Source: Nigrospora sphaerica (Eukaryota; Ascomycota; Sordariomycetes; Amphisphaeriales; Apiosporaceae). From it: DNA of 64,000 nt. The position numbers were made by a program, and so were the translations under genes. The notes beneath the pieces were generated by a model. It had not been told where the DNA came from. It worked only from the letters and a program-made list of their open reading frames with translations, and made no database searches. The stretch spans positions 37,290-101,289 of the forward strand of contig JAGVVL010000014.1 in NCBI GenBank assembly GCA_018287875.1. Reading direction: 5' to 3'. Positions 229 to 39,930 of this stretch are shown one piece after another. Position 1 is the stretch's first letter, and every line of letters starts with the position of its first letter.

Positions 229-461
229 TGTAACGGAATGATACGAATCGAACGAGGTGACTATGTGCACGCAATTCCAATGACTGGCTGGCTGTATTGA
301 CTTCAATCTGGCCGTCCCTCCGTTTGCGGGCGCGGCCAGATTCTGCATAAGGGCGCCCCGGATTAACGTGGCGCCGCTCCGCCGTTTCGGCGACCGCCCT
401 GGCGCTTGCTTCCCGCCGGCGCGCCGACGCACCGCCGATCCGCCCGCCCGGCCCCTTTACA
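229..461 (-). repeat. 3' LTR of the chromovirus (233 bp)
   Basis: This direct repeat of 9399-9631 begins TGTAACGGAATG and ends CCCCTTTACA on the plus strand. The two copies read as identical over the full 233 bp by eye. That implies a recent insertion, or gene conversion between the LTRs. Confidence 0.95.
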
Positions 462-932
462 ATGCCCCCCAATTCCTGGGCCCGGTCTCCGGCGCCCGTG
501 GAATTCCTATCGGTGGAGCGGTCTCGGGTGCGCCGCGCCGCGTGGGTCCTTGGCCCGCCACCTTGTGGTCGCCGCCCTTCGTGGGGTTGTCCTATGCGCT
601 CGTTATGTCTGCTGGCCCGCCCGTCGGCGGCCGGTCGTTGCCTGGGCGGCGCTGCCCCGCGCTGCGTGTTTGTCTCCAGTCGCGCTCTCTGTCGCGGCGG
701 CCTCGCCGCCTCGCCGCCTCGCTGCCTCGCTGCCCGTGTTGCTGCCTGGGGCGCCGAGGGCTCGGCTTTGTTTGTAGCTCCGTACTCCATACCAACTCCT
801 GGGTCGGCGCCTGGTTGCAGCTTTCCTTTGTTCCCGTTCCTTGTGGCAGGCGACCTCTCCATTCCCCGTACGTCTCGTGTTTCGTGACGCTCTCTGTTCC
901 TCATCCATTCGTTCTTCGACTGTTCGCCGACA
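462..932 (+). promoter_or_regulatory. Candidate 5' region of the antisense gene, overlapping the polypurine tract
   Basis: This 471-bp GC-rich stretch lies between the 3' LTR and the first plausible ATG of the opposite-strand gene (933, context ACAATG). It is pyrimidine-biased on the plus strand and has no convincing TATA box. On the minus strand its outer edge is the G-run polypurine tract needed for plus-strand DNA synthesis. The promoter role is inferred only from position. Confidence 0.3.
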
Positions 933-3900
933 ATGCTGTACCCGATCTACTCGCGCGAGGACGCGCTTAACCGCATTCGCGAGTGGGAGGTCCTCCCCGC
1001 CTGTCACTCTGTCTTTCGTTTTGGACACTCCGGCGGCCCTTTGTCCCGGAACGCCGACGACGATCTTGTCGTTTCCTTGTGCGTCCCGCATCCTGGTCGG
1101 CGCTCTATCGGGCCTCGCTCGGCTGCCTCGGGCGTTGCTAACCCTCCCCTCTAGCCCCAATGCCTTTTGTTGCAACAGTGTCACGACCGGCGCTGTTGAT
1201 CCCTCTCTGAACTGTGAGGGTGCCGGCAAGTGCGGGATCTGCGCCATTGATCATCGCAAATGTGTCGCCGTTTGTGTTGCCCTTTGCCCGCGACTGTGTT
1301 GCGATGGCTGACGCGTTTAGATTCCCGAGGAATTGGTCGGTGCCGGCCGCGTCCTCACCGCTGGCATCGCCCATCTTCGCGTCCTTCAATACCGCGGTAC
1401 CCACATGGGCCAGGTGGGCAGTTCCAATTGGAACTGGCGATACGTCCAAGCCTATGGGTCGCTCAAGACGGTCTACCACGAGGCGGCGATGGCTTTCCGC
1501 CTATGCTGCAATGAGGAGGACATTGCCGTCTTCCAGGAGCGCAAGGAACAGAAAAAGCGCGAAGCCGCCAACTCCCTCGCCGTTGTTGAGGCGCAGAGCC
1601 AGCGCCGGTTCGTCCAATTACAAACGGACATCCTCGCCGTGAGTTTCCCCTCCTTTCGCCGCCGCGTCGGCGTACTGGTTCTAATCGTGTTCCGGTAGGG
1701 CGCCCATGGCCAACGGGAGCCTGTCAGTGCTGAGGAGTACCAGCGGCGATACACCCTCGCCCTTCCTGTCGGCGATCGCAGTGCCGATAGCCTGTCCCGC
1801 CTTATCGCGCACTGCGAGGAACTTTATCGCCTAACCGTCGACAACTACGACGACAAGCTGTACCGCTGGGCGCCTGGATACCATTTTCTCGCGGGCGAGG
1901 CCACATCGGATATCGATTGGCAGCGTCGGTTCAAACGATCGCAGAAAAAAGGTGCTGCGAGGGTTGATTCGTGGTTTGGTGTCAACCACGCCCGGCGGGA
2001 GAAACATGGTAAGAGCCGCGTTGCTCGAGCAGGTCCCGCCGCCCCTGGTCGCCGTACCCCGGTGAGTCCTCCCCGTCTTCGTTTTGACGCGACCGGTCCT
2101 TAGTTAACACTTCCGGTAGGGTAGCAAGGCGTCTGTCCGCCGATCCCATTCCGACGCACGAGTCGACTCCGCCGGGCCTTCGTCGCCCTTCACGCCAGTC
2201 CCCGCCGCGATGCCTGGCGATGAATCGCCTTCCGACGACGAGGACTCTGACGACGACGCCTCGAGCCTGGGTGCGGACACTGACGACGATGGCGAGTACG
2301 TCCAGTCGCCGTCCGGTCGCAGCTCTCCTTCCGGCTCCAGTGCCCGTCCTGGCCCCTCCGGCCGGGGTGGCTCGGGCGCGCCTGCGCTAGAGGATCGCGA
2401 CCTGCTGTCCTCTGCTGCGTCCCTGTCGGACGCGCCGATGTCCTCTGCGCCGGCCTCTCGGGTCCAGCGCTCCACTCGTGCTGCGACACCCTGGCCCTCC
2501 AGCCCTGCCTCCGGCGTCCGCTCTGCTAGCGGTGCTCCCTCCGCTAGCGGCGCCTCCTCGATGGTGGAGTGGCGGGCCGAGCGGCGGATCCATCTCACGA
2601 TGATCTCCAATACCTGTCCTCTGCCTGAGAAGCCTTGGTCCGCGGAGGAGTATCGCGACTGCGTCGCCGCGCGCTTGGAACTGTGGCATAAGTTCGACCA
2701 GGTCCCCACGACCGTCGCCGAGCCACCTCATTCGTCCGCTCGTGACCAGAAACTCATTGAGTTTCGCGATTTGGTTCCCCCCGCCCTTCCGAGGTTGGAG
2801 GCCACCATAATCCTGTCGCAATGTACGACGTTTACCATACTGCCCGACGCGGTTTCGAGACCTGGCTTCGACGTCTACACCCTTGCCTTCGTCCGGCGGC
2901 TCGCTGCCGTCCCCTCTCGTCGCCGGCGAACGGCCAGCGTACTTACAGCGCCTCTCCGGGCTATGGCAAGGCGAGTACGACCCGTTCGCTTCGCCTAAGC
3001 GGGTAAACTTCAGCATGCCCGGCGACGGCGGTCGCGACGTTTCCTCGCTGGACAGTAGCCGCTCTGGTTCCGATGTCGTGGACGGTCTGGACTCGTGCGG
3101 CCCTTCCTCTCCCTTGAGCGCGGTCGCCGACCCAGATGCGTCCGACGGCGGCAACGCCCTGTCCGTTGGCTCCGACACCGGCGGTGACCGCTCCCCTAGC
3201 CCTGATGGCGATGTTGACATGGTCTCGGGGGCACTGACGCGTCGGCGCAAATGCCGCCACCCGCGCAAGCTCTTGCCCCGACCGGCCCGTCCGTGGACCC
3301 ACACTGGACTGCCGAGCAATGGGCGCTCGCCCGCCGACGGGCCATGAACCGCATCCTCGAGCTGTATCCTGACCCCGCTCCCCTGTCAGCGTTACCGCCT
3401 TCCGGGACGTCCTTTGGGCCCGGCACTTCAGTCTCCACTCGGCGAACCGCGAGATAGACACGGCTATGCGCTGGGATTCCCATCCCGCGCCGCCTAGTGT
3501 TCAGCACACGCGAGACACTGAGAACCTCGACGTGGCCACCATCACGCTCTCGGCGACGGCTGACGTCCTTGGTTGTGCTCCCCGAGCTGGCCATCTCTCT
3601 CTGGCTCGGCTTGCCCAGGCCGGCGGACGATCGCATGTCCTGCGCCGCTTCCCGATCGACGCTACCCGCCCCGATCCCATTGGAGCTGGGTACACACCCC
3701 GGTACGTCTCCGAGATCGTGACTAGCCTTCCGGCGGCGGCTCCTCCCCCTGCCGTTTAAGGACTGGTCCCCGGCCGCAATGGAGGAGTACTACAACAGCG
3801 CCTTCTCGTCACTCGGCTTGCGACGGATCAACGTCCTCGGTGGCATCGCTCCGCCCGCCGTCTCGCCGTCCTCGTCGACCCGAGGTGCCAAACGTCGCCG

Positions 3901-3979
3901 CTCTGCCGCCGACGACGCGGCTCACGGTCCCTCGGCTGGACCCCCTCCTTCGCGACGCCTTCGCCCGTCTCGCCGCTAG
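933..3979 (+). CDS. Opposite-strand, intron-containing accessory gene inside the chromovirus; function unknown
   Basis: The gene starts at ATG 933 and ends at TAG 3977-3979, tail-to-tail with pol (stop at 4159). Four introns restore one continuous frame: 1079-1154 (GTGCGT, branch GCTAAC, CTCTAG), 1270-1320 (GTTTGT, branch GCTGAC, TTTAG), 1639-1698 and 2062-2119 (both GTGAGT with TTCCGGTAG ends). Exons 2 to 5 then follow in phase. The N-terminal part has a Cys cluster, CX5CX2CX6C, in exon 2. Exon 4 is basic and Tyr/Trp-rich. Exon 5 opens with an acidic Ser/Asp-rich region followed by a conserved-looking globular part, and the C-terminus is basic (KRRR). After about 2775 the frame steps at C- or G-runs near 2776-2781, 2920, 3225 and 3380, and again near 3745; most are consistent with one lost base. 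I do not recognise the family. The Cys motif suggests nucleic-acid binding, which is inference. A captured host gene is an alternative origin. Confidence 0.7.
1079..1154 (+). other. Predicted intron 1 of the antisense gene
   Basis: A 76-nt intron runs from GTGCGT to CTCTAG with GTTGCTAAC as branch site. It is in phase 2, and splicing joins TT+C to give Phe and opens the Cys-rich frame of exon 2. Without splicing, the exon 1 frame stops at 1152-1154, on the acceptor itself. Confidence 0.6.
1270..1320 (+). other. Predicted intron 2 of the antisense gene
   Basis: A 51-nt intron runs from GTTTGT to GCGTTTAG with branch site GGCTGACG. It is in phase 0. The TGA at 1309-1311 and the TAG at 1318-1320 both fall inside it. 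The GTTTGT donor is less common than GTRAGT but is used in fungi. Confidence 0.5.
1639..1698 (+). other. Predicted intron 3 of the antisense gene
   Basis: A 60-nt phase-0 intron has donor GTGAGT, branch TTCTAATC and acceptor TTCCGGTAG. The upstream frame terminates at 1696-1698, exactly on the acceptor. The downstream exon, 1699-2061, is open for 121 codons. Confidence 0.7.
2062..2119 (+). other. Predicted intron 4 of the antisense gene
   Basis: A 58-nt phase-0 intron has donor GTGAGT, branch GTTAAC and acceptor TTCCGGTAG. The last nine bases match those of intron 3. Splicing joins a Pro codon to Gly-Ser-Lys and continues into the long acidic exon. Confidence 0.7.
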
Positions 3980-4158
3980 GTCGCCCTGACGCGTCACCTA
4001 GTTTGCCGTCCCCTCATCCGCTGCGTCCTGCGCTTTGGCGGATCCTCGTCGCCCGTACGCCGCCTAGCGGACCTCCTGCGTCCTACTCTGCATGCCGCGT
4101 GCGACCTTCCACAGCAATTGCATGGCTTAGCTCCGTGTACTTCTAGGCCCTGGCCTCG

Positions 4159-5741
4159 TTAATTGATCTGCTGCGCTTCGCGCCCCGCCACTCCGTGATT
4201 TCCTGTGCTCGGAGGGCGATCGTCGTCCCATTTACGGTGGGACCGCCGCTTACGATAGCGTGCCACGATCTTCGGCGCGTTCTCCAGGTTCGCCTCTGGC
4301 TCCCAGGTGTTATATTCCACCGGCCAGCCCATCCATTTCACGAGGTACTCCGCCCCTCGGGCGGTCGTCCTGTGTCGGAGGATATCCTCGACCTCCCACT
4401 CCTCTTGGTCCTCCACCAGTCCTGGGAGTGCCTCATGGTCCCCGGAGGCCTTGCCAGTCCATGGCTCCAACGATGACACTGGGAACACGTCGTGTATCCG
4501 TTCGTACTGCGAGGGCAGGGCGACCCTGTAGGCCACCTTACCAATCCTCTCCGTGACCTTTACCCGAATGTACGTCGGGGCGAGCTTCGCACCGCACTTA
4601 AATCGGAACCGCTTCGTCGAGAGGCCTACCCACTGACCTGGTTGGAACTCTTGGTCCTGGTGCCTTCGGTCGTAGCCCTTTTGTTGGGCTTTCACTGCGA
4701 CGTCCCAGTGTTCTCTCATACGCGCGCGGACCTCTCGGCTCTTCTGTAGCCGTTCTAACACGCCCGCGCTCCGAAAGCGTTCTGCTTGGGGGCGAACTCC
4801 GTCATCCTCGGGTGAAATCCATACAGCGCCTCAAACGGTGACACCCCGATGGAGTCGTGGCGGCGGTTATTATAGGCGAACTCGGCTTCGTGTAGCCCGG
4901 ATGCCCATGTCGCCTCGTCGCAACACGTGCGTAACCACTTCTCTAGTGTTTGGTGCGTTCTCTCTGTCTGCCCGTCCGTTTGGGGATGGTACGCCGTGCT
5001 CAGCCGGCGTTTCGTTGCCCTTGCCTCGCACCACTCTTGCCAGAACCGGCTCGTGAGTAGGGAGTCCCTATCGCTCACAATCCCGAGGGGCGTCCCGTAC
5101 CGGCATTCCACTTCCTTATACAGGATATGGGCTAACTCTGCCGCAGTTAGGGTTTTCCTCGTGGGTAGGAACAGTGCCATCTTCGTGAATCGGTCCACGA
5201 TGACTAACACGGCGTCGCAGGCGTCGCCCTCGGGTCGGCAGCTGATCGGCAGCCCAGTGATGAAGTCCATGCTAATCTCTTGCCAGGGTCCCTCGGGTAG
5301 CGGTAGGGATTGGAGTAGGCCGTACGGTTTGTGCCTTGGTCTCCTTGCTCCCTGGCACTCCTGGCATGACTCTGCGTACTGTCGCACCTCCTCGGCGATC
5401 GCGGGCCAGTGGAACTTCCTCGTGAGCAGCTCTAAGGTCTTATTCGCGCCTAGGTGTCCCGCCCTGGGGTCATCGTGGTGTTGGTGGAGTAGTTGGGCCC
5501 TTAACGCTCCCTCATTAGGGATGACTAGCCTTCCTTTAAATCGGAGGGCTCCTTCCTCGTCTAGGTGGTACCCCGCAGCTTGGCCTTGCCGCGCCTTCTC
5601 CATTCGTTCCGCGATGTCCCGGTCCTGGGGTTGTAGCCCCCGAATGAGCTGGTAGAACGCCTCAGTGGGCTTATCCGCCCAAGTGGTCTCGTTTCTTGCC
5701 ACGCTTCGAGCCACTGCTCTCGGGAGCACCTGTCCCCCCAC
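4159..5741 (-). CDS. Chromovirus pol 3' part: integrase with C-terminal chromodomain
   Basis: The first segment (5741-4755) holds the HHCC zinc-binding domain (H-X3-H ... CQEC) and an integrase core with the catalytic triad in the contexts SMDFITGLP, IVSDRDS and QTDGQTERTHQ. One base is lost near 4765. The frame then resumes at 4761-4159 with the integrase C-terminal fold and a chromodomain (WEVEDILRHR ... VKWMGWP ... NTWEPEANL). Chromodomains of this class guide integration to modified histones; that is family knowledge. The aromatic positions W, W and W are kept, so the module looks functional apart from the indel. Integrase inserts the cDNA in the nucleus. Confidence 0.9.
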
Positions 5742-5993
5742 CGGCCTCGTCGATCACTGCTCGGCGCCTCGTCGTGGGTGGCCCTCCTGGCCTTGTGCCC
5801 GGGTTACCGGGGCAAGGACCGCGTCCCCCCTGGCCACCCGCCGACCTTTTGTCTGTGTGCGTCACCATCGCCCGCACCGCCCCCACGTACGTCGCGGTCC
5901 CGACGTTTCTCGTGGTGCTGATCCTTGCCACCTGGTGTCGGACCTCGGCCGGCAGCTGGTCGACGAGTGCCAGTTTCATTGCTAGTGACGGAA

Positions 5994-8420
5994 TCACGTC
6001 GTGGTAGCTGATCTCCCCAGCCATGTAGTCTGGTCGCCGCGATAGCGGATCCGCCGGGTTCGTGGCCCCTTCCGATATTCCATATCGAAGTCAAAATGCG
6101 AGAGCCTGTACACCCATCTTGCGAGGCGGCCTCGTAAGTCTCTCGCCGGTGCTTCCACGACCCCTTTCAGTGCCTGGTGGTCGGTCCAGACCGTGAACTT
6201 GGCGCTCAGCCCCTCAAGGTAGTGTCTCCAATGCTCGAGTGATTCGACAATCGCTAGCAGTTCCTTTTGGCCCGTGGCCCAGTTCAGCTCGGGCGCCGTG
6301 AGTTTCCGCGACCAGTAGGCGACTGGCCTCCACTCGCCACCTCCTTGTTTCTGTGATAGGATGCCTGAGACTGCCCTATCACTCGCGTCTGTCTCGACCC
6401 TGCTAGTTTTCTCCGGGTCCCAGTGTCGGAGCACCGTCGCCGAAGTGAACGCGTGCTTTAGCTCTTCGAACGCCTTCTGTGCGTCCAGGGGCCACTGGAA
6501 CGGGCCCTTCTTCCGGCCGGCCTCCATGCCTTTCAGTAGCGCCGTAATCGGTGCCGTGATATGCGAGTACTTCGCAATGAACTTCCTATAGAAGTTGGTG
6601 AACCCTAGGAACACTTGGATGTCCCGGTACGACTCAGGAGGCTGCCATTCCTGCACGGCTATCACTCGTTTCGGGTCCATCTTTAAGCCTACTCGGCCGA
6701 CCACGAATCCTAGGAACTCGATTTCCTCTTTAAAGAATTCGCACTTCGAGATCTTCGCAAATAGCTCGTGCTCCTTCAGCCGTTCGCACACCATTCGGAG
6801 ATGCGTCGCGTGTTCCTTCGCGTCCTGCGAGTAGATGACGATGTCGTCGAGGTAAACCACGCAAATGGTGTCAATGAGCCCTGCTAATGCCTTCTGCATA
6901 TAGGCCTGAAACGTGGCGGGCGCGTTCGTGAGCCCCATGGCCATCACGTTATACTCGAAGTGGCCGTACTTCGTTCGGAACGCGGTCTTCCAGCGGTCGC
7001 CCTCTGCGATTGCGAGGCGAAAATAGGCGTCTCGTAAATCCATCTTCGAGAACACCTTCGCCGACCCCAGCTGATCCATCAGCTCGCTAATTAGCGGAAG
7101 CGGATATCGGTTCTTTACCGTGACCTTATTTAGGCCCCGGTAATCGACGCATAGTCGTAGACTGCCGTCCTTTTTTGGCACGAATAGCACGGGTGCCCCC
7201 GCCGGGCTCGTGGAGTGCCTAATGCGACCGGTTTCCAACGCCTTCGCGAGGTACTCCTCGAGCTCCTTTCGTTGCGGTTCTGAGAGGGGATAGATAGGTC
7301 CGTGTGGAGGCTGTGCGCCGGGGATGAGGTCGATCGTGTGCGGTGTCTCTCCTAAAATAGGCGGCTCCGCGGCTGCGGACTCACTAAACACGACCTCGTA
7401 CTCCTTTAAACAGGCTGGTAGCGCGACGGTCCCTATGGGCGGTTCGTCGTCAAGCCCCGGTATCGCCGACGCGTCACCTAACTCTAGCCTCGCTAGCTGG
7501 GCGATTAGCACCGGTTCGCCTTCGGTCGCTTCGCGGGCGAACTCCTCTGGCCCCACGAACTGCATCACTCTAAACGTGAACGTGTCTGGCTTTCGTGTGT
7601 CTAAGGTAATTCCCTCCCGCCCCATGCCCGGGCGGGACAGTAGCACCTGGGCCGCGTGCTTATCTCGGCGCACGACGAAGAACACCTGCGTGAACCTCCG
7701 TACCTGCCCTTGCACGTCTTGCATCTCTATCGCCGCTTCCACGGCGCCATAGCACCGTAGCGGCTGCCCGTCGACCCCTAAAAGTCGCGGCAGAGTTATG
7801 GGGACTTTCGTAACCCAACCCCTCGTGACGGCTCGATCCGCCGTCCGCTTTGCGATCACGTTGACCTCGGCCCCCGAATCCAGGTCGATCCGAATCGGCT
7901 TCTTCGCTCGGCCGAGTTCGTCGCATAACTGGCCCGTGGTGCGCATGGCCGCGCCTAGCACCCCTGTCGCGCGGTGTGTGTCCGCTGAGTCGTCTTGCGC
8001 TCCGTCCGGCTCAGCTACACATTTCCCGCCTCGCTCGCGCTCCAGTCGGAGTCGGATCGGTACTGGGGCGTCTCTTGCTTCACCTCTGCCGCCTGGATCC
8101 GCGCGCCGGCCGCTCGTGTAGCGCCGGTGTGCGCCGCCGGGGATTGCCTGCCCGGCGGCTTGGCCGTACAATCCCGCTGGATATGGCCCCCTCGCCGCAT
8201 TTATAGCAACGGACGTACTTCGGGCGGGGTCTCCTCTCGGTGGCGCCTGGGCCGAACCCCCTCGACGAACCTTCGACGCTGGTTGCACCACCGCCTGGTT
8301 CACATACCCCTGTCGGGTCCCGCTAAACTCGTGCTCGGCCCGGGGTCGCTTCCTTCCTCCCGGAGTCCCGTCGCGTGTCCCTTCGCGATCCCTTCGCTGA
8401 TAAGGGAGAGGATCTGCCAT
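5994..8420 (-). CDS. Chromovirus pol 5' part: aspartic protease, reverse transcriptase, RNase H
   Basis: This is an 808-codon open frame. The first about 120 residues overlap gag in another frame and may not be translated in this frame. A retropepsin motif, DSGAEVNV, lies at about 7854-7886. Reverse transcriptase follows, with SPAGAPVLFVPKKDGSLR, the catalytic YLDDIVIY (6833-6856) and the thumb region. RNase H (VETDASD ... WTDHQAL) ends the segment. The frame then breaks at a G4 run near 6066: one added G would continue into the DPLSRRPDYMAGE linker. All key catalytic residues are present. Confidence 0.93.
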   Translation of the reverse strand: MADPLPYQRRDREGTRDGTPGGRKRPRAEHEFSGTRQGYVNQAVVQPASKVRRGGSAQAPPRGDPARSTSVAINAARGPYPAGLYGQAAGQAIPGGAHRRYTSGRRADPGGRGEARDAPVPIRLRLERERGGKCVAEPDGAQDDSADTHRATGVLGAAMRTTGQLCDELGRAKKPIRIDLDSGAEVNVIAKRTADRAVTRGWVTKVPITLPRLLGVDGQPLRCYGAVEAAIEMQDVQGQVRRFTQVFFVVRRDKHAAQVLLSRPGMGREGITLDTRKPDTFTFRVMQFVGPEEFAREATEGEPVLIAQLARLELGDASAIPGLDDEPPIGTVALPACLKEYEVVFSESAAAEPPILGETPHTIDLIPGAQPPHGPIYPLSEPQRKELEEYLAKALETGRIRHSTSPAGAPVLFVPKKDGSLRLCVDYRGLNKVTVKNRYPLPLISELMDQLGSAKVFSKMDLRDAYFRLAIAEGDRWKTAFRTKYGHFEYNVMAMGLTNAPATFQAYMQKALAGLIDTICVVYLDDIVIYSQDAKEHATHLRMVCERLKEHELFAKISKCEFFKEEIEFLGFVVGRVGLKMDPKRVIAVQEWQPPESYRDIQVFLGFTNFYRKFIAKYSHITAPITALLKGMEAGRKKGPFQWPLDAQKAFEELKHAFTSATVLRHWDPEKTSRVETDASDRAVSGILSQKQGGGEWRPVAYWSRKLTAPELNWATGQKELLAIVESLEHWRHYLEGLSAKFTVWTDHQALKGVVEAPARDLRGRLARWVYRLSHFDFDMEYRKGPRTRRIRYRGDQTTWLGRSATTT

Positions 8421-9365
8421 CGACGCTCCGCCTCGTGGGCGACCGCTTGGGCGTCGGTGATAGCAACGTTATCCCGAATGATGTCCATCCGTAGCCACGG
8501 TCGCAGCTTGAGTAGGAACTCGTGTGCGATGAGGGGCTGGCCTGCGATGCTCTCTCGAACCCGTCGCTGCCACGCGGACCACTCGTTATAGAACTGTGTC
8601 GGCGATTGGTCGGCCGTTTGCCGGATCCGTTGTAGCGCCGCCATTGACCTCTGCATATTCTGAGCCGGGTCGATGTGTTCCCGTCGAATGAACTTTAAGA
8701 AGTCTGCCCACTTGGCCTGCTCGCTGTATTTCCCTTGCGGGTATAGATCTTCGGCGTGGGTGCGCCACTCGCTTTGCAAGGCGTAGTCCACGTTGGTGAG
8801 GGCCCATTCGATATAGCGAGCATCCGTCTGGTCGGGTCGGCTCTCGTTTTGTTGTTCCACCGCCACGATCCAGCTTCGGATCTCCACGTGGGTCGAGGCC
8901 TCCTCTAGCTTCTTGCATGCGTAAGTCGGTGGCTTCTCGTACGTGCGCGGTTCTCCGCTCGTGCTCCGACTGGGCGGCGTTAGTCCTTGACCCCGTTGGC
9001 GGTCGGCTCGGTCCGCCGTCATCATCTCGATCATCTTCTGCTGTGTCTTCAGCAGCGCGCGGAGAAGGTCGTTCTCCCGCGTGGCGACCCGGAACAGATC
9101 GGACTCCGAGGGGTTGACATGTCGGGTCCCGGCGTTGGGCTTGGATCCGTTTCGCCGGATGGTCGCGGTTCGTCCGCGCCCGTGGGCCCTTCGTCCATTG
9201 GGAACGGGCGCCCTCCACCGTGCCCGCTCCGGTAGTCAGGGCGCCGGGGATCGCCGCGTTGCTCGGCGCGGCTGGCTCGTTGGCTCCTAACCCTAAGTTG
9301 GGGTGAGAGCTTGCTTGACCGGGCGTCGAGCTGTCGGGGCGCGATCGGGTAGCGGGTGCCATAGC
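8015..9365 (-). CDS. Chromovirus gag (capsid and nucleocapsid), broken by a stop and frame steps
   Basis: An N-terminal segment begins at the ATG near 9363-9365 (MAPATRSRPDSS). The main capsid-like part is 9034-8300, about 244 residues, with a Gag-type alpha-helical region (YIEWALTNVDYAL ... WADFLKFI ... FYNEWSAWQ). A TGA at 8300-8302 interrupts the same frame. Downstream the frame encodes a CCHC zinc knuckle, CYKCGEGGHIQRDC, at about 8170-8212, and ends at 8015. Gag forms the cytoplasmic particle and binds RNA. The N-terminal portion switches frame near 9100-9250. Whether the stop is real or an error is unclear. Confidence 0.8.
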
Positions 9366-9398
9366 CGGCTCGTTCTCGTGGTGTAGAGATTGAAGAAT

Positions 9399-9631
9399 TG
9401 TAACGGAATGATACGAATCGAACGAGGTGACTATGTGCACGCAATTCCAATGACTGGCTGGCTGTATTGACTTCAATCTGGCCGTCCCTCCGTTTGCGGG
9501 CGCGGCCAGATTCTGCATAAGGGCGCCCCGGATTAACGTGGCGCCGCTCCGCCGTTTCGGCGACCGCCCTGGCGCTTGCTTCCCGCCGGCGCGCCGACGC
9601 ACCGCCGATCCGCCCGCCCGGCCCCTTTACA
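9399..9631 (-). repeat. 5' LTR of the chromovirus (233 bp)
   Basis: This is the same sequence as 229-461. It lies upstream of gag on the minus strand and would hold the promoter. The bases just inside it do not start with the TGG expected for a tRNA-primed binding site, so the primer is unresolved; a self-priming mechanism as in Tf1-like elements is possible. Confidence 0.95.
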
Positions 9632-12451: not shown

Positions 12452-12977
12452 ATGCCCAACAGCCGTGATGGCCGTAAGAGTGTCCGCTTTAGCATAGGGT
12501 CCGAGCAGTTGAGCGGCTCGAGACGCAGCCGTTGGGATGATGAATGTGATTCTGGAATTGGCTCGTCGTCAAGTGAACAAACCTCCCAGAGACGAGGGAG
12601 ATCTGATTGGGGTTAACAGCTGCAGACCGCCTCCACCAGAGCAACGACCCCGACGCTTTACGAGAGGCCTACGTCACCTTGCTTGCAGAAAACCAGAACC
12701 TCAAGGGCGCTATTTGCCAACATGAAGCATCTCTGAGCACATCCCATCGGGCGATCAAGCAACTGGAGGAACACGCGACCGGCCTTTTTACGCAGATAGA
12801 AGAACTCCAGGCCAAGAACAACGACTACAAAGTCGAAAGGGCGCGCCTAGCCACTAAGAGAGATGAACTCGAGGCCGAGAACAACTTATACAATGAAGAA
12901 AGGGCGCGCCTAGCTACCAAGAGAGCTGACCTCGAGGCCATGATCGACTCGAGGTCCTTCAACCTTGATAAGCTGAC
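12452..12977 (+). pseudogene. Coiled-coil N-terminal part of a fungal gene, cut at the inversion breakpoint
   Basis: The gene starts at ATG 12452 (context GCCATG). The N-terminus is a basic, Ser-rich leader with the SVRFSIG and DSGIGSSSSE motifs, common to a family of fungal coiled-coil proteins. The frame shifts near 12605. Translation continues as an amphipathic coiled coil with an internal repeat: two copies of about 21 residues sharing the core ERARLATKR (around 12835 and 12898). The coil ends at ...NLDKLT (12961-12977), exactly at the inferred breakpoint. Beyond that the plus strand reads the reverse of the neighbouring block. The coil continues in frame on the minus strand from 15209 downward (VFEHQPTKWRADYEHKRARL). 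Confidence 0.6.
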
Positions 12978-26829: not shown

Positions 26830-29800
26830 GGCTTCGGCTAGCCTAGTTCTTCTTTGGCTAGCGGGCTTTTCGCCATCGAAATCCGTCGCTGGTCTGTATT
26901 TCGCTTCGAATTCGTTTAGCGCTTGAGTATCTTTCAAGTTCTCTAGAGGCTCCCAAGTTGGTTCTGCGTAGCCTCTCTATTTGACTAGGACCTGCCGGTA
27001 TGAGCCCCTTCCGCGTCTCTTCGTACGGGCTCTTGTAATACTCTCGACTTCCCACTCGTTGTTATCTGGGTTACTGTTATCCGTAAAAGCTGGCGGCGGT
27101 TGATAGTCTGTTGTCTTCTGGGAAGGTAAAGGGTCCTCGTACGCAGGTTTTATAAGGTCCACATGGAACCTTGGCCATACTCCTTGTGGGACGTCTAGTT
27201 CGTAAACGTGAGAGCTGATAACCTTTGTAACAGTGTATTTCGCGTGTAGCCAGGCTAGCTTTTTCGATGGGACGTCTAGGTTAAAGTTCTTAAGGGAAAG
27301 CCAAACCTTATCCCCTACTCGGTATTCGCGTGCGGCGGTCCTTTTTCGGTTCGCGAGGTCCTCCTGGGCTTATTGGGCGGCTATCATAGCGGCTTGGGCG
27401 AAATCTCCAGCGTCCTTTAGTCTCTGGACGAAGTGTTCGGCTCTTATGCGTGGATCCCTCGAGCTTTATGGCGATCTCTCGATGACTTGGATTGGTTCGA
27501 CGTGGTATCTGTGTAGGAGAAAGAACGGACTGACCCTAATAGCTCTCGAGTCTCTATTGTTAATCGCTAGCTGAGCTCCTGGGAGTAGCTTAGCCCAGTC
27601 GTGCTGGGTTAGAGCTGTATAGGAGCGTAAGTACGCGAGAACCTCTTGATTAGCTCGTTCAGTTGCTCCGTCAGTCTCAAGGTGGAAGGCGGTGCTTAGC
27701 CTCTGATCCATTGATGTTAGCTAGCAAAGTCGCGTCCAGAATCGGCCAGTCCAGTTAAAGCCCCTATCACTCGTGATGGCCCTTAGGAATCCGTGGAACC
27801 GCCAGAAGGCTCTCACAAAGGTCTCGGCGCAGGCTTCCGCTTCCATCGTTGTCATGGCCTCTAAGGTTACCTCTTTAGATAGCCTGTCGGTGATCACCAT
27901 TAGGAAGCTCGGGTCGGTCTCGCACGTAGTTGGTAAATCCGTCATGAAGTCGATCGAGATCTCTGTGTGGAACCTATCCGGGACAGGTAGCGGCTTTAGA
28001 AGCCCTTACTTTGCGTCTCTCTAGACTCTCTTTTTGCCGCAGGTGTCGCAGTTCCTTAGGAACTGACGAACTGCTAGTGTAAGGCCAGGCCAAAAGAAGC
28101 TTCGGTTTAGGATGCTAATCGTTCCGTCCCTTCCTGGGTGTCCTGAAGCGTGCGAGTCGTGGGCGTTCTGGATTAAGGCCGTCCTGAGGGGCTCGTACGC
28201 CGGTATCCAGATTCTGTTGCGAAACCTGACTCTTCCTTCCGGGTCTAGCTTGCACTCCGATATCGATACGACGCCTTTTAGGCTAGGAGCAAAGGACTGC
28301 TGCTTCGTACGGAGGTCTGCCACCATAGTTCGGTAATCGGGATCCTTCTCGATGGCTTGGTTCCAGAGCGTCTGAAGGTCTTCATGGGCGAAGCACTCGT
28401 CTCCTGATGGGAATTGCTGGCCATCGATGTTTAGGACTCCAACACCGAGGTCCTCACTCTCCTCCTCCTCCGCTGGTTGCTTCTCGCGAGGATCTCCCTC
28501 GTCCTTAAGGAGCTGTTGGTAACGGCCTTTCGTTCTCTCGTCGTCGTACCCATCCGGTTTGTCTTGCTCTCTTCTAGACAGCGTATCGGGCCTGTCTGCT
28601 AGCCTCCCCGGTCGGTAATGGAGCTTATAAGAGTACCTCTCGAGCTTAACTACCCAGCGAGCTTGTCTCTCTGTGAGGTGTCTTGCCTTTCGGAAGTATT
28701 CGAGGTTCTTGTGGTCCGTTAGGATCTCGAAGGGCTCTCGTATGCTCCTTAGTATCCCGTCCCACGCGCTAAGGCAGTCTATCACCGCTAGGAGTTCTTT
28801 ATCGTGGATCTCGTAGTTGAACTCTGCTGGGGAGAGCTTCCGGGAGTGGTATGCTATTGGGTGTAGCAGACTGTCTTCGCTGTACTGTGATAAACAGCCT
28901 CCAAGGCTGTGTCCTGAGCAGTCTGTCTCGACTACTGTTCGTCGGTCTGCGTCCTACTGGGCTAGGACTGGAGCTTCGATAAACACTCTCTTAAGATGCT
29001 CGAAAGCGCCTTGTTGCTCCTGGTCCCACTGGAACGGGGTTCCCTTCTTCGTTAAGGCGGTTAGTGGCCGTGTGATCGCTGAATACTCGGGTATGAACGT
29101 TCGGTAGAAGTTTGCGAATCCTAAGAAGCTGCGTACTCCTTTAAACGTCTTAGGAGCCTCCCACTCCTGGATCGCGAGTACCTTTTGAGGGTCCATTCGA
29201 ACTCCTTTGCCTGCCTCGATAATGAACCCTAAGTACTTAGTCTCCTTCACCGCGAACTCGCATTTCCCTAAGTCGAGACCTAGGCTAGCGTCTCGTAAGC
29301 GGCTTAGGACCTTCTCGACTTCTTTCATATGGTCCTCCCTACTCCCTAAAGAGTAGATAAGGATGTCGTCTATATAAGCTGAACAGGAATGGTTTAGTAG
29401 GTCCTTTAAGGTGTAGTTAATATACCGTTGGAACGTGGCTGGTGCCCCAGCTAATCCGAATGGCGTCACGAGCCACTTGTATAGGCCGAACCTGGTCCTA
29501 AAGGCTGTCTTCTATTCCTCGCCCGCAGCAATTCGGATCTTATGAAACGCCGCTCGGATATCGAGCTTCGTGAGCCAGCGCGCTCCTGAGAGCGTCGTGA
29601 GTGTCTCTCGGATTAGCGGCAAAGGGTATCTGTCTCTCTTCGTAATCGCGTTGAGCGCTCTGAAATCGCAGCAAAAGCGTAGTCCGCCTCCCGGCTTTTT
29701 CACGAACAGCACGGGAGCTCCTCCGGCGGAGCTGCTCGCTCGGATATAGTTCTTATCCAGTAGGTCCGTTAAAGTCTTCCGTAGCACTAGGAGCTCTTCG

Positions 29801-38966: not shown

Positions 38967-39930
38967 AATAACAGGGCCGATTCCTTAAGCCGCCGACCGG
39001 ATTATAAACAAGAGGTACCAATCGAGAGATATATAATTCTTATTAAGGATCCAAACGGAAACCTCGTACCTATTAAGCAACTCGACGTAGTATATCGTGT
39101 ATAATATAAGGATTAGGATAAGCGAATTCGAAAGATTAGCGGTAACGAATTAACCAGGTATAACAGCAAGATTGAGATCCTTAAATGTCTTCAAGTTAAG
39201 CTTGTTAAGGACTTCTATAAGTATCCCGCTTATAGACACTAAGGAAGGTTCAAAACCTTAATATAGATCAAGTAATAGTACGACTATCCTAACCTAAAGG
39301 ACATTGTTGCAACTATTATTAAAAAATGCAATCTATATAACAAGGCTAAGGCCTCACGCTATAAGCTATACAGAGAACTCTAGCCTATATCACCACCAGA
39401 TAGAGCCTGGAAGATAATTGCATTAGACTTCATCGTGAAGCTACTACTATCGAAGGAACCTATAACGTAAGCAGTCTATAATAGCATCCTTATTATCATA
39501 GATAAACTTATAAAGTACACGTATTTCATACTATATAAGGAGTTAAGCAACGTAAAGGAACTCGCATATACCTTCCTTAAGACTGTCGTCAGCTAACATA
39601 GGTTGCTAAAGTAAATTATCTCCGATTAAGATAAGCTATTCACTAGCAAATTCTAGAAATCACTTATAGTACAGCTAGGTGTTAAGTATAAGCTATCTAC
39701 AGCCTATCATCTATAGACAGACGGATAAATAGAAAGAATAAATTAAATACTCGAATAGTATCTACAATATTATATTAACTATCGATAAAACAACTAGATC
39801 AGACTACTACCGACAACATAGATCTCTTATAACAGTGCTAATAACGAGTCACTTAGTATATCACTATTTAAGGCCAACTATGGATTCAACTTAGAAGTTA
39901 TACGACTAGTAATCGAAGGGAAGACGCCCT

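Follow-up and report, generated by a model that had tools for sequence, protein, structure and literature searches.

A chromovirus of Nigrospora sphaerica carries, on the strand opposite to gag-pol, a putative gene whose four introns are retained in every full-length copy of the element that we found. The window analyzed here is a stretch of 64,000 nucleotides from the assembly GCA_018287875.1 (contig JAGVVL010000014.1, positions 37,290 to 101,289). Analysis of the assembly shows the layout of this candidate gene, its four well-signalled introns, its presence in all full-length copies found, the retention of the introns through retrotransposition and past selection on the encoded sequence. These results can be brought together in one account, which we consider likely: a long-standing accessory gene of the chromovirus lies opposite gag-pol and is spliced from an antisense mRNA, and its protein is probably nuclear.

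Layout of the element and of its antisense gene

The window contains a 9.4-kb Ty3/gypsy chromovirus (229-9631) encoded on the minus strand (Table 1). Its LTRs are of 233 bp each and identical, and the order of reverse transcriptase, RNase H and integrase between them is that of Ty3/gypsy elements. The minus strand codes for these domains and for a chromodomain (Pfam scan), the latter at the C-terminal end of pol (PF00385, E = 6.9×10−19). The antisense gene is located on the plus strand, in tail-to-tail orientation to pol. It lies between pol and the 3′ LTR, where a preliminary description of this DNA had placed it, and the four introns named in that description are all bounded by exact GT...AG.

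Table 1. Features of the chromovirus and of its antisense gene (positions in the window).
Feature	Position	Strand	Basis or remark
3′ LTR	229-461	-	Identical to 9399-9631; TG...CA ends read on the plus strand; sense strand of the element is minus
Putative leader and promoter of the antisense gene	462-932	+	Suggested by position; the last 60 bases upstream of the ATG are pyrimidine-rich (72% C+T)
Exon 1, ATG at 933	933-1078	+	GT-AG reading, spliced-ORF search
Intron 1 (GTGCGT...GCTAAC...CTAG), phase 2	1079-1154	+	Sequence signals
Exon 2, Cys-rich	1155-1269	+	Exons 1 and 2 give the N-terminal 87 residues, with 7 Cys
Intron 2 (GTTTGT...GCTGAC...TTTAG), phase 0	1270-1320	+	Signals; start of exon 3 matches the relative L033
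Exon 3, conserved, predicted helical (modest confidence)	1321-1638	+	Shares 36% amino acid identity, phase and both borders with exon 3 of L033
Intron 3 (GTGAGT...TCTAAT...GGTAG), phase 0	1639-1698	+	Donor and AG kept in L087; L033 has an intron at the same place
Exon 4, conserved, basic	1699-2061	+	Codon-position test with L087
Intron 4 (GTGAGT...GTTAAC...GGTAG), phase 0	2062-2119	+	Donor and acceptor kept in L087
Exon 5: acidic stretch rich in Ser, Pro and Gly, followed by a basic one	2120-2998	+	Spliced frame of the window copy stops at 2998
3′ part of the gene, frame unsettled	2999-3979	+	Homopolymer lengths vary among copies; possible fifth intron 3289-3389
C-terminal pol piece: chromodomain (PF00385) and Tf2-1-like SH3 domain	4159-4761	-	Pfam
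Integrase piece (H2C2 zinc-binding, rve)	4755-5741	-	Pfam
pol piece: reverse transcriptase and RNase H	5994-8420	-	Pfam
gag-like ORF	8300-9034	-	Position alone; without Pfam match
5′ LTR	9399-9631	-	Identical to 229-461

The window's own copy of the element has no target duplication. On contig C5, a tandem pair of elements with one common LTR (C5:119567-138134), also without a target duplication, has outer flanks identical to those of the window element (16 bases shown), which indicates that the window's contig (C6) and C5 contain versions of one site. Further mutated integrase relics are found on C6 (window 27493-28254 and 39186-39896), and relics on C5 score equally, which again suggests that part of C5 is duplicated in C6. 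The small contig C6 thus looks like another version of the C5 region that differs by one element unit. Outside the element, the window also contains two 63-base direct tandem copies (12794-12919) that are 81% identical.

Introns and the spliced reading frame

We scanned the region 933-2998 with a strict fungal-type intron pattern (GTNNGT, a YTRAY branch site and YAG, 45-120 nucleotides), which was written after the four introns had already been seen. All six plus-strand candidates are located at the four introns, one of them with an alternative donor and one with an alternative acceptor, and no candidate was found on the minus strand of this region. When the scan was extended to the complete element, the plus strand showed 10 donors and the minus strand 4. 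Removal of the four introns leaves an open frame of 606 codons (ATG at 933, stop at 2998). A mechanical search for the longest spliced ORF with strict signals returned a model of equal length and intron number (606 codons, four introns), in comparison with 262 codons unspliced and 114 codons on the minus strand. GC contents at the three codon positions are alike in the antisense gene (0.656/0.552/0.700) and in pol (0.645/0.478/0.692).

Could GC-rich DNA produce such a structure by chance, through fortuitous ORFs and motifs that resemble splice sites? Among 300 dinucleotide shuffles, there are 1.1 intron candidates on average and 6 at most, the same as in the real sequence, so that the number of candidates alone is not decisive. 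The shuffles also give long ORFs, of 131 codons on average unspliced and 298 at maximum, but the latter is far below 606 codons. Moreover, the codon-position pattern of one relic (L087, see below) already refutes chance unless that relic is misaligned, and we consider this explanation extremely improbable.

The length of the product is a different matter. The preliminary description expected about 400 codons before the first frame step and a product of about 900 residues, and both figures have to be revised: the window copy is open for 606 codons, a 403-codon frame being found in 8 of the 18 other copies, and no copy as assembled extends past 726 codons. Frames were taken as assembled, with no consensus built and no frame mended. 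On this basis, the four-intron frame reaches codon 605-723 in 5 of the 19 full-length copies and stops at codon 544 or earlier in the other 14, and none of the 19 copies has a single frame to 3979. A candidate fifth intron (3289-3389) takes two copies to 726 codons. Fifth and sixth intron candidates were tried as frame extenders and were set aside, as none of the 19 copies passes that length. Similar homopolymer indels occur in gag-pol (9 of the 19 copies compared), and thus the breaks are not special to the antisense gene. The homopolymer breaks point to assembly error or to shared decay, and the gag-pol indels do not tell which.

Copies in the genome and retention of the introns

The genome scanned comprises 51.6 Mb in 33 contigs, and the copy counts given here are lower bounds. 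At least 40 LTR matches were scored, and at least 19 full-length elements were read from them as LTR pairs with a spacing of about 9.17 kb; two of these elements form the tandem pair with one shared LTR. Other LTR matches belong to a mutated copy on C5 (C5:1944k), to a solo LTR and to contig C30, which has a single LTR close to its start. A search of the genome with the antisense gene gave 128 matches (E up to 10−3). The preliminary description had proposed that homologues be sought in other copies of the element, and in this same genome the gene, with all four introns, is indeed found beside pol in 19 of the 19 full-length copies found. Over positions 700-4200, the differences among these copies are homopolymer-length changes of one to a few bases, a single two-base indel of another kind and a small number of substitutions; inside the introns, the only changes are single-base changes in homopolymer length (introns 1 and 3, three copies). 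Integrase matches of at least 75% identity all fall within these 19 elements or within the C5:1944k copy, which is mutated and likewise has the gene; a close relative lacking the gene was thus not seen.

Perfect 5-bp target duplications, all different from each other, were found at 12 of the 18 element loci read, and none at the other six loci and the solo LTR. Because the flanks of the window copy are also those of the C5 tandem pair, the 18 loci amount to 17 distinct sites. The different target duplications indicate that the introns survived independent retrotranspositions. Retroelements lose sense-strand introns when they pass through RNA, and intron-based retrotransposition reporters rely on this loss. 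The element described here would be a natural case in which four introns pass reverse transcription at many independent insertions owing to their orientation. The preliminary description had reasoned that the introns are kept owing to the antisense relation of the genomic RNA to the gene, and the four introns in all 19 copies, together with the duplications at 12 of the 18 loci, bear this out. Thus, on genomic evidence, it is supported that the antisense orientation of the genomic RNA explains the retention of the introns.

The copies at C10:1380731 and C12:4440640 have the same 16-base left flank and different right flanks, with a target duplication in the C12 copy only. This observation suggests ectopic recombination between copies.

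Relics and past selection on the spliced sequence

The 19 young copies are too alike, differing mostly by homopolymer indels, and selection was therefore read from relics. Heavy C>T and G>A changes of a RIP-like kind are seen in C5:1942561-1947205 and in the relics L031 and L032, and none in the compared parts of the nearly identical 19 full-length copies. Among the differences of the C5:1944k copy, 207 of 230 are C>T or G>A. Such mutation makes L031, L032 and the C5:1944k copy poor material for tests of selection.

The case for selection rests mainly on one relic of 602 bp, L087 (C7:3360000-3365500; approximately L087:2252-2852), which itself contains 2 stop codons. It covers positions 1538-2137 with 84.7% identity. 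Its differences are concentrated at third codon positions (12/160, 9/161 and 50/161 at positions 1, 2 and 3; position 3 versus positions 1 and 2, P = 5×10−12, Fisher's exact test). The estimated dN is 0.056 and dS is 0.61 (NG86, 148 codons, the 2 stop codons dropped), with dN/dS near 0.09. L087 covers two of the introns, 3 and 4, and in both the GTGAGT donor and the AG acceptor are kept. The introns of L087 differ (18/117) more than codon positions 1 and 2 (P = 0.007) and less than position 3 (18/117 versus 50/161, P = 0.003). The latter result is not predicted by plain neutrality of introns, and splice signals and chance are the sole explanation that we can offer for it.

One might then ask whether it is only the antisense RNA that matters, by silencing or trans-control, with the protein being irrelevant. 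Ty1 in yeast is described as controlled by antisense RNAs (PMC12786077), the frames are broken by codon 544 in most copies as assembled, and introns that are more conserved than third positions would suit such a role. However, the third-position excess, the low dN/dS ratio and the kept splice sites of L087 need selection on a spliced coding sequence, and we regard an RNA-only function as very unlikely.

Other relics extend the history of the gene, which we favor as a protein-coding one. In a remoter relic, L033 (C18; L033:4218-5517 and 7239-7300), exon 3 can be recognized at 36% amino acid identity, its borders and phase are unchanged, and an intron is found at the place of intron 3. Values for this exon are near saturation (dN 0.65, dS 1.5, 103 codons). 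A short stretch coding GGLMGLSLDRPPSL is present twice in the L033 locus. L032 (C13) is a diverged RIP-like element with the same layout, an LTR (66-68% identity) followed by the gene, and a weak pol match (28%) is placed as expected. In L032, transversions are slightly fewer at position 2 (33/593 versus 99/1190, P = 0.04) and reverse transitions are fewer at position 1 than at position 3 (8/596 versus 27/594, P = 0.001), both of which give weak support to selection; its introns are not more diverged than its exons (intron transversions, 13/228). As read from these relics, the pattern is one of past purifying selection on spliced protein-coding sequence, and the putative antisense gene is an old part of the chromovirus lineage.

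The preliminary description had offered two origins, an element-encoded accessory protein or a captured host gene. In its recent form, capture would mean that a host gene was taken up in reverse, as unspliced DNA or as a piece of antisense RNA, and is carried as a passenger. A multi-intron structure is typical of host genes, and no LTR or pol of this element was detected in the 5.5 kb around L087 or in the 10 kb near L033. Nevertheless, a genome gene search found no intact host copy (72 of 76 candidates scored), and the matches outside the 19 copies, namely the C5:1944k copy, L031, L032, L033 and L087, are all RIP-like relics or fragments. L087, and L033 beyond exon 3, contain stop codons; L032 shows that the association of LTR and gene is old; and the gene is present in every full-length copy found. 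The first of the two origins is thus preferred, because of the LTR-then-gene layout of L032 and the purifying selection seen in L087, and recent capture appears unlikely.

Features of the predicted protein

The Cys-rich N-terminus is followed by the predicted helical exon 3, and further downstream residues 315-480 are rich in Ser, Pro and Gly (pI 4.7) and residues 480-606 are basic (pI 10.2). Exons 3 and 4 gave poor structure models (pLDDT 66 and 47), too weak for a fold search. No Pfam match was found in the spliced 606 residues (E up to 1); when pieces were scanned at E up to 10, including the 3′ part at 2883-3347, the only match was a weak one to CDC26 (E = 0.22), below the cut-off of that family. 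In a search of 5.8 billion proteins, the whole query gave no homologue at E up to 0.01 among the best 7993 candidates scored, and residues 1-290 gave none at E up to 1 (2158 candidates scored). As a control, pol gave 6358 matches among 7981 candidates scored, and those listed include matches in Gaeumannomyces, Colletotrichum, Fusarium and Penicillium, so that fungal proteins are present in the database. A search of viral contigs confirmed no relative of either pol or the antisense ORF. By its composition, and by analogy with known antisense proteins, the product would fit a regulator that acts on nucleic acids or in relation to chromatin.

A model for the expression of the antisense gene

We propose that RNA polymerase II transcribes the antisense gene from a promoter located between the 3′ LTR and position 933, or in the LTR itself. 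Splicing of the antisense mRNA would then allow the translation of a protein with 606 residues or more, in which a Cys-rich N-terminus, a helical middle, an acidic Ser-rich stretch and a basic one would follow each other. This protein would most likely act in the nucleus and control the expression or the integration of the element, as judged from its composition and by analogy. The genomic RNA, in turn, would show each splice site as its reverse complement, and the introns would be copied unspliced. Splicing would thus take place in the antisense mRNA only and would mark it apart from the genome: only the antisense mRNA could be spliced and become competent for translation, and genomic RNA and cDNA would always keep the introns. 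This arrangement also provides an internal test of antisense expression, in that a plus-strand junction read can come from antisense mRNA only. In addition, the approximately twenty near-identical young copies make the function of antisense accessory genes of LTR elements directly testable. It is conceivable, although we advance it tentatively and at somewhat less than even odds, that this is the first described LTR accessory gene to keep several spliceosomal introns by means of antisense orientation, with the introns as a strand mark and the gene as an old, selected part of its lineage.

Comparison with known antisense genes of retroelements

Boty-like elements with an antisense brtn gene were reportedly described in Botrytis cinerea in 2011. 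The preliminary description knew of no fungal chromovirus with an intron-bearing antisense gene; any wider claim that fungal precedent is lacking would be too bold, since in Boty of Botrytis cinerea and Sclerotinia an antisense gene, brtn, is described that is situated between pol and the 3′ LTR (PMC7264820), and a Boty-like gag-pol protein is described as having a CHROMO domain (PMC4227169). The brtn gene has been named as an additional ORF of BcGypsy1 (PMC8365987). As far as descriptions can be compared, Boty is like the window element: both are fungal LTR elements with gag-pol, a chromodomain and one antisense gene between pol and the 3′ LTR. The window gene had no homologue among the candidates scored from the 5.8 billion proteins, a set in which BRTN may not be included.

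In plants, the elements Grande, RIRE2, Retand and PvRetro13 are described with an antisense gene in the same arrangement, and the antisense protein of Grande as nuclear (PMC7264820, PMC11963269). Their antisense genes resemble the one described here in position, orientation, presence in most copies and unknown function. They differ in that their hosts are plants and that Retand is a non-chromovirus, whereas the window gene has neither TRP28 nor any other Pfam match. Introns are not mentioned in the main text of either source, the first of which calls for attention to antisense and spliced transcripts. The window gene shares properties of the aORF-3R class (antisense accessory ORFs between pol and the 3′ LTR), being present in most copies (19 of 19) and conserved in protein sequence (L087 and L033).

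Among retroviruses, HTLV-1, HTLV-3 and HTLV-4 have spliced antisense transcripts (PMC3185765). HBZ of HTLV-1 and the antisense proteins of HTLV-3 and HTLV-4 are, like the product of the window gene, encoded in antisense near the 3′ LTR, and there they come from a spliced antisense transcript. In HTLV-1, however, both the transcript starts and the ATG of the main form are described as lying within the 3′ LTR, whereas the ATG of the window gene (933) is 471 bases outside the LTR, which ends at 461. HTLV is moreover a retrovirus, and the window gene has four introns. No match to the bZIP domain of HBZ was found in the 606 residues scanned (Pfam, E up to 1). Among the literature matches listed, at the level of titles and the first parts of abstracts, none described an intron-bearing antisense gene of an LTR element. 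Antisense accessory genes are thus already known in plant and fungal elements, and what may be new is a multi-intron structure with direct evidence of intron retention. For this class of genes, the comparison of copies and relics is unusually direct evidence, at the level of the genome, that introns are retained and that the predicted protein has been under selection.
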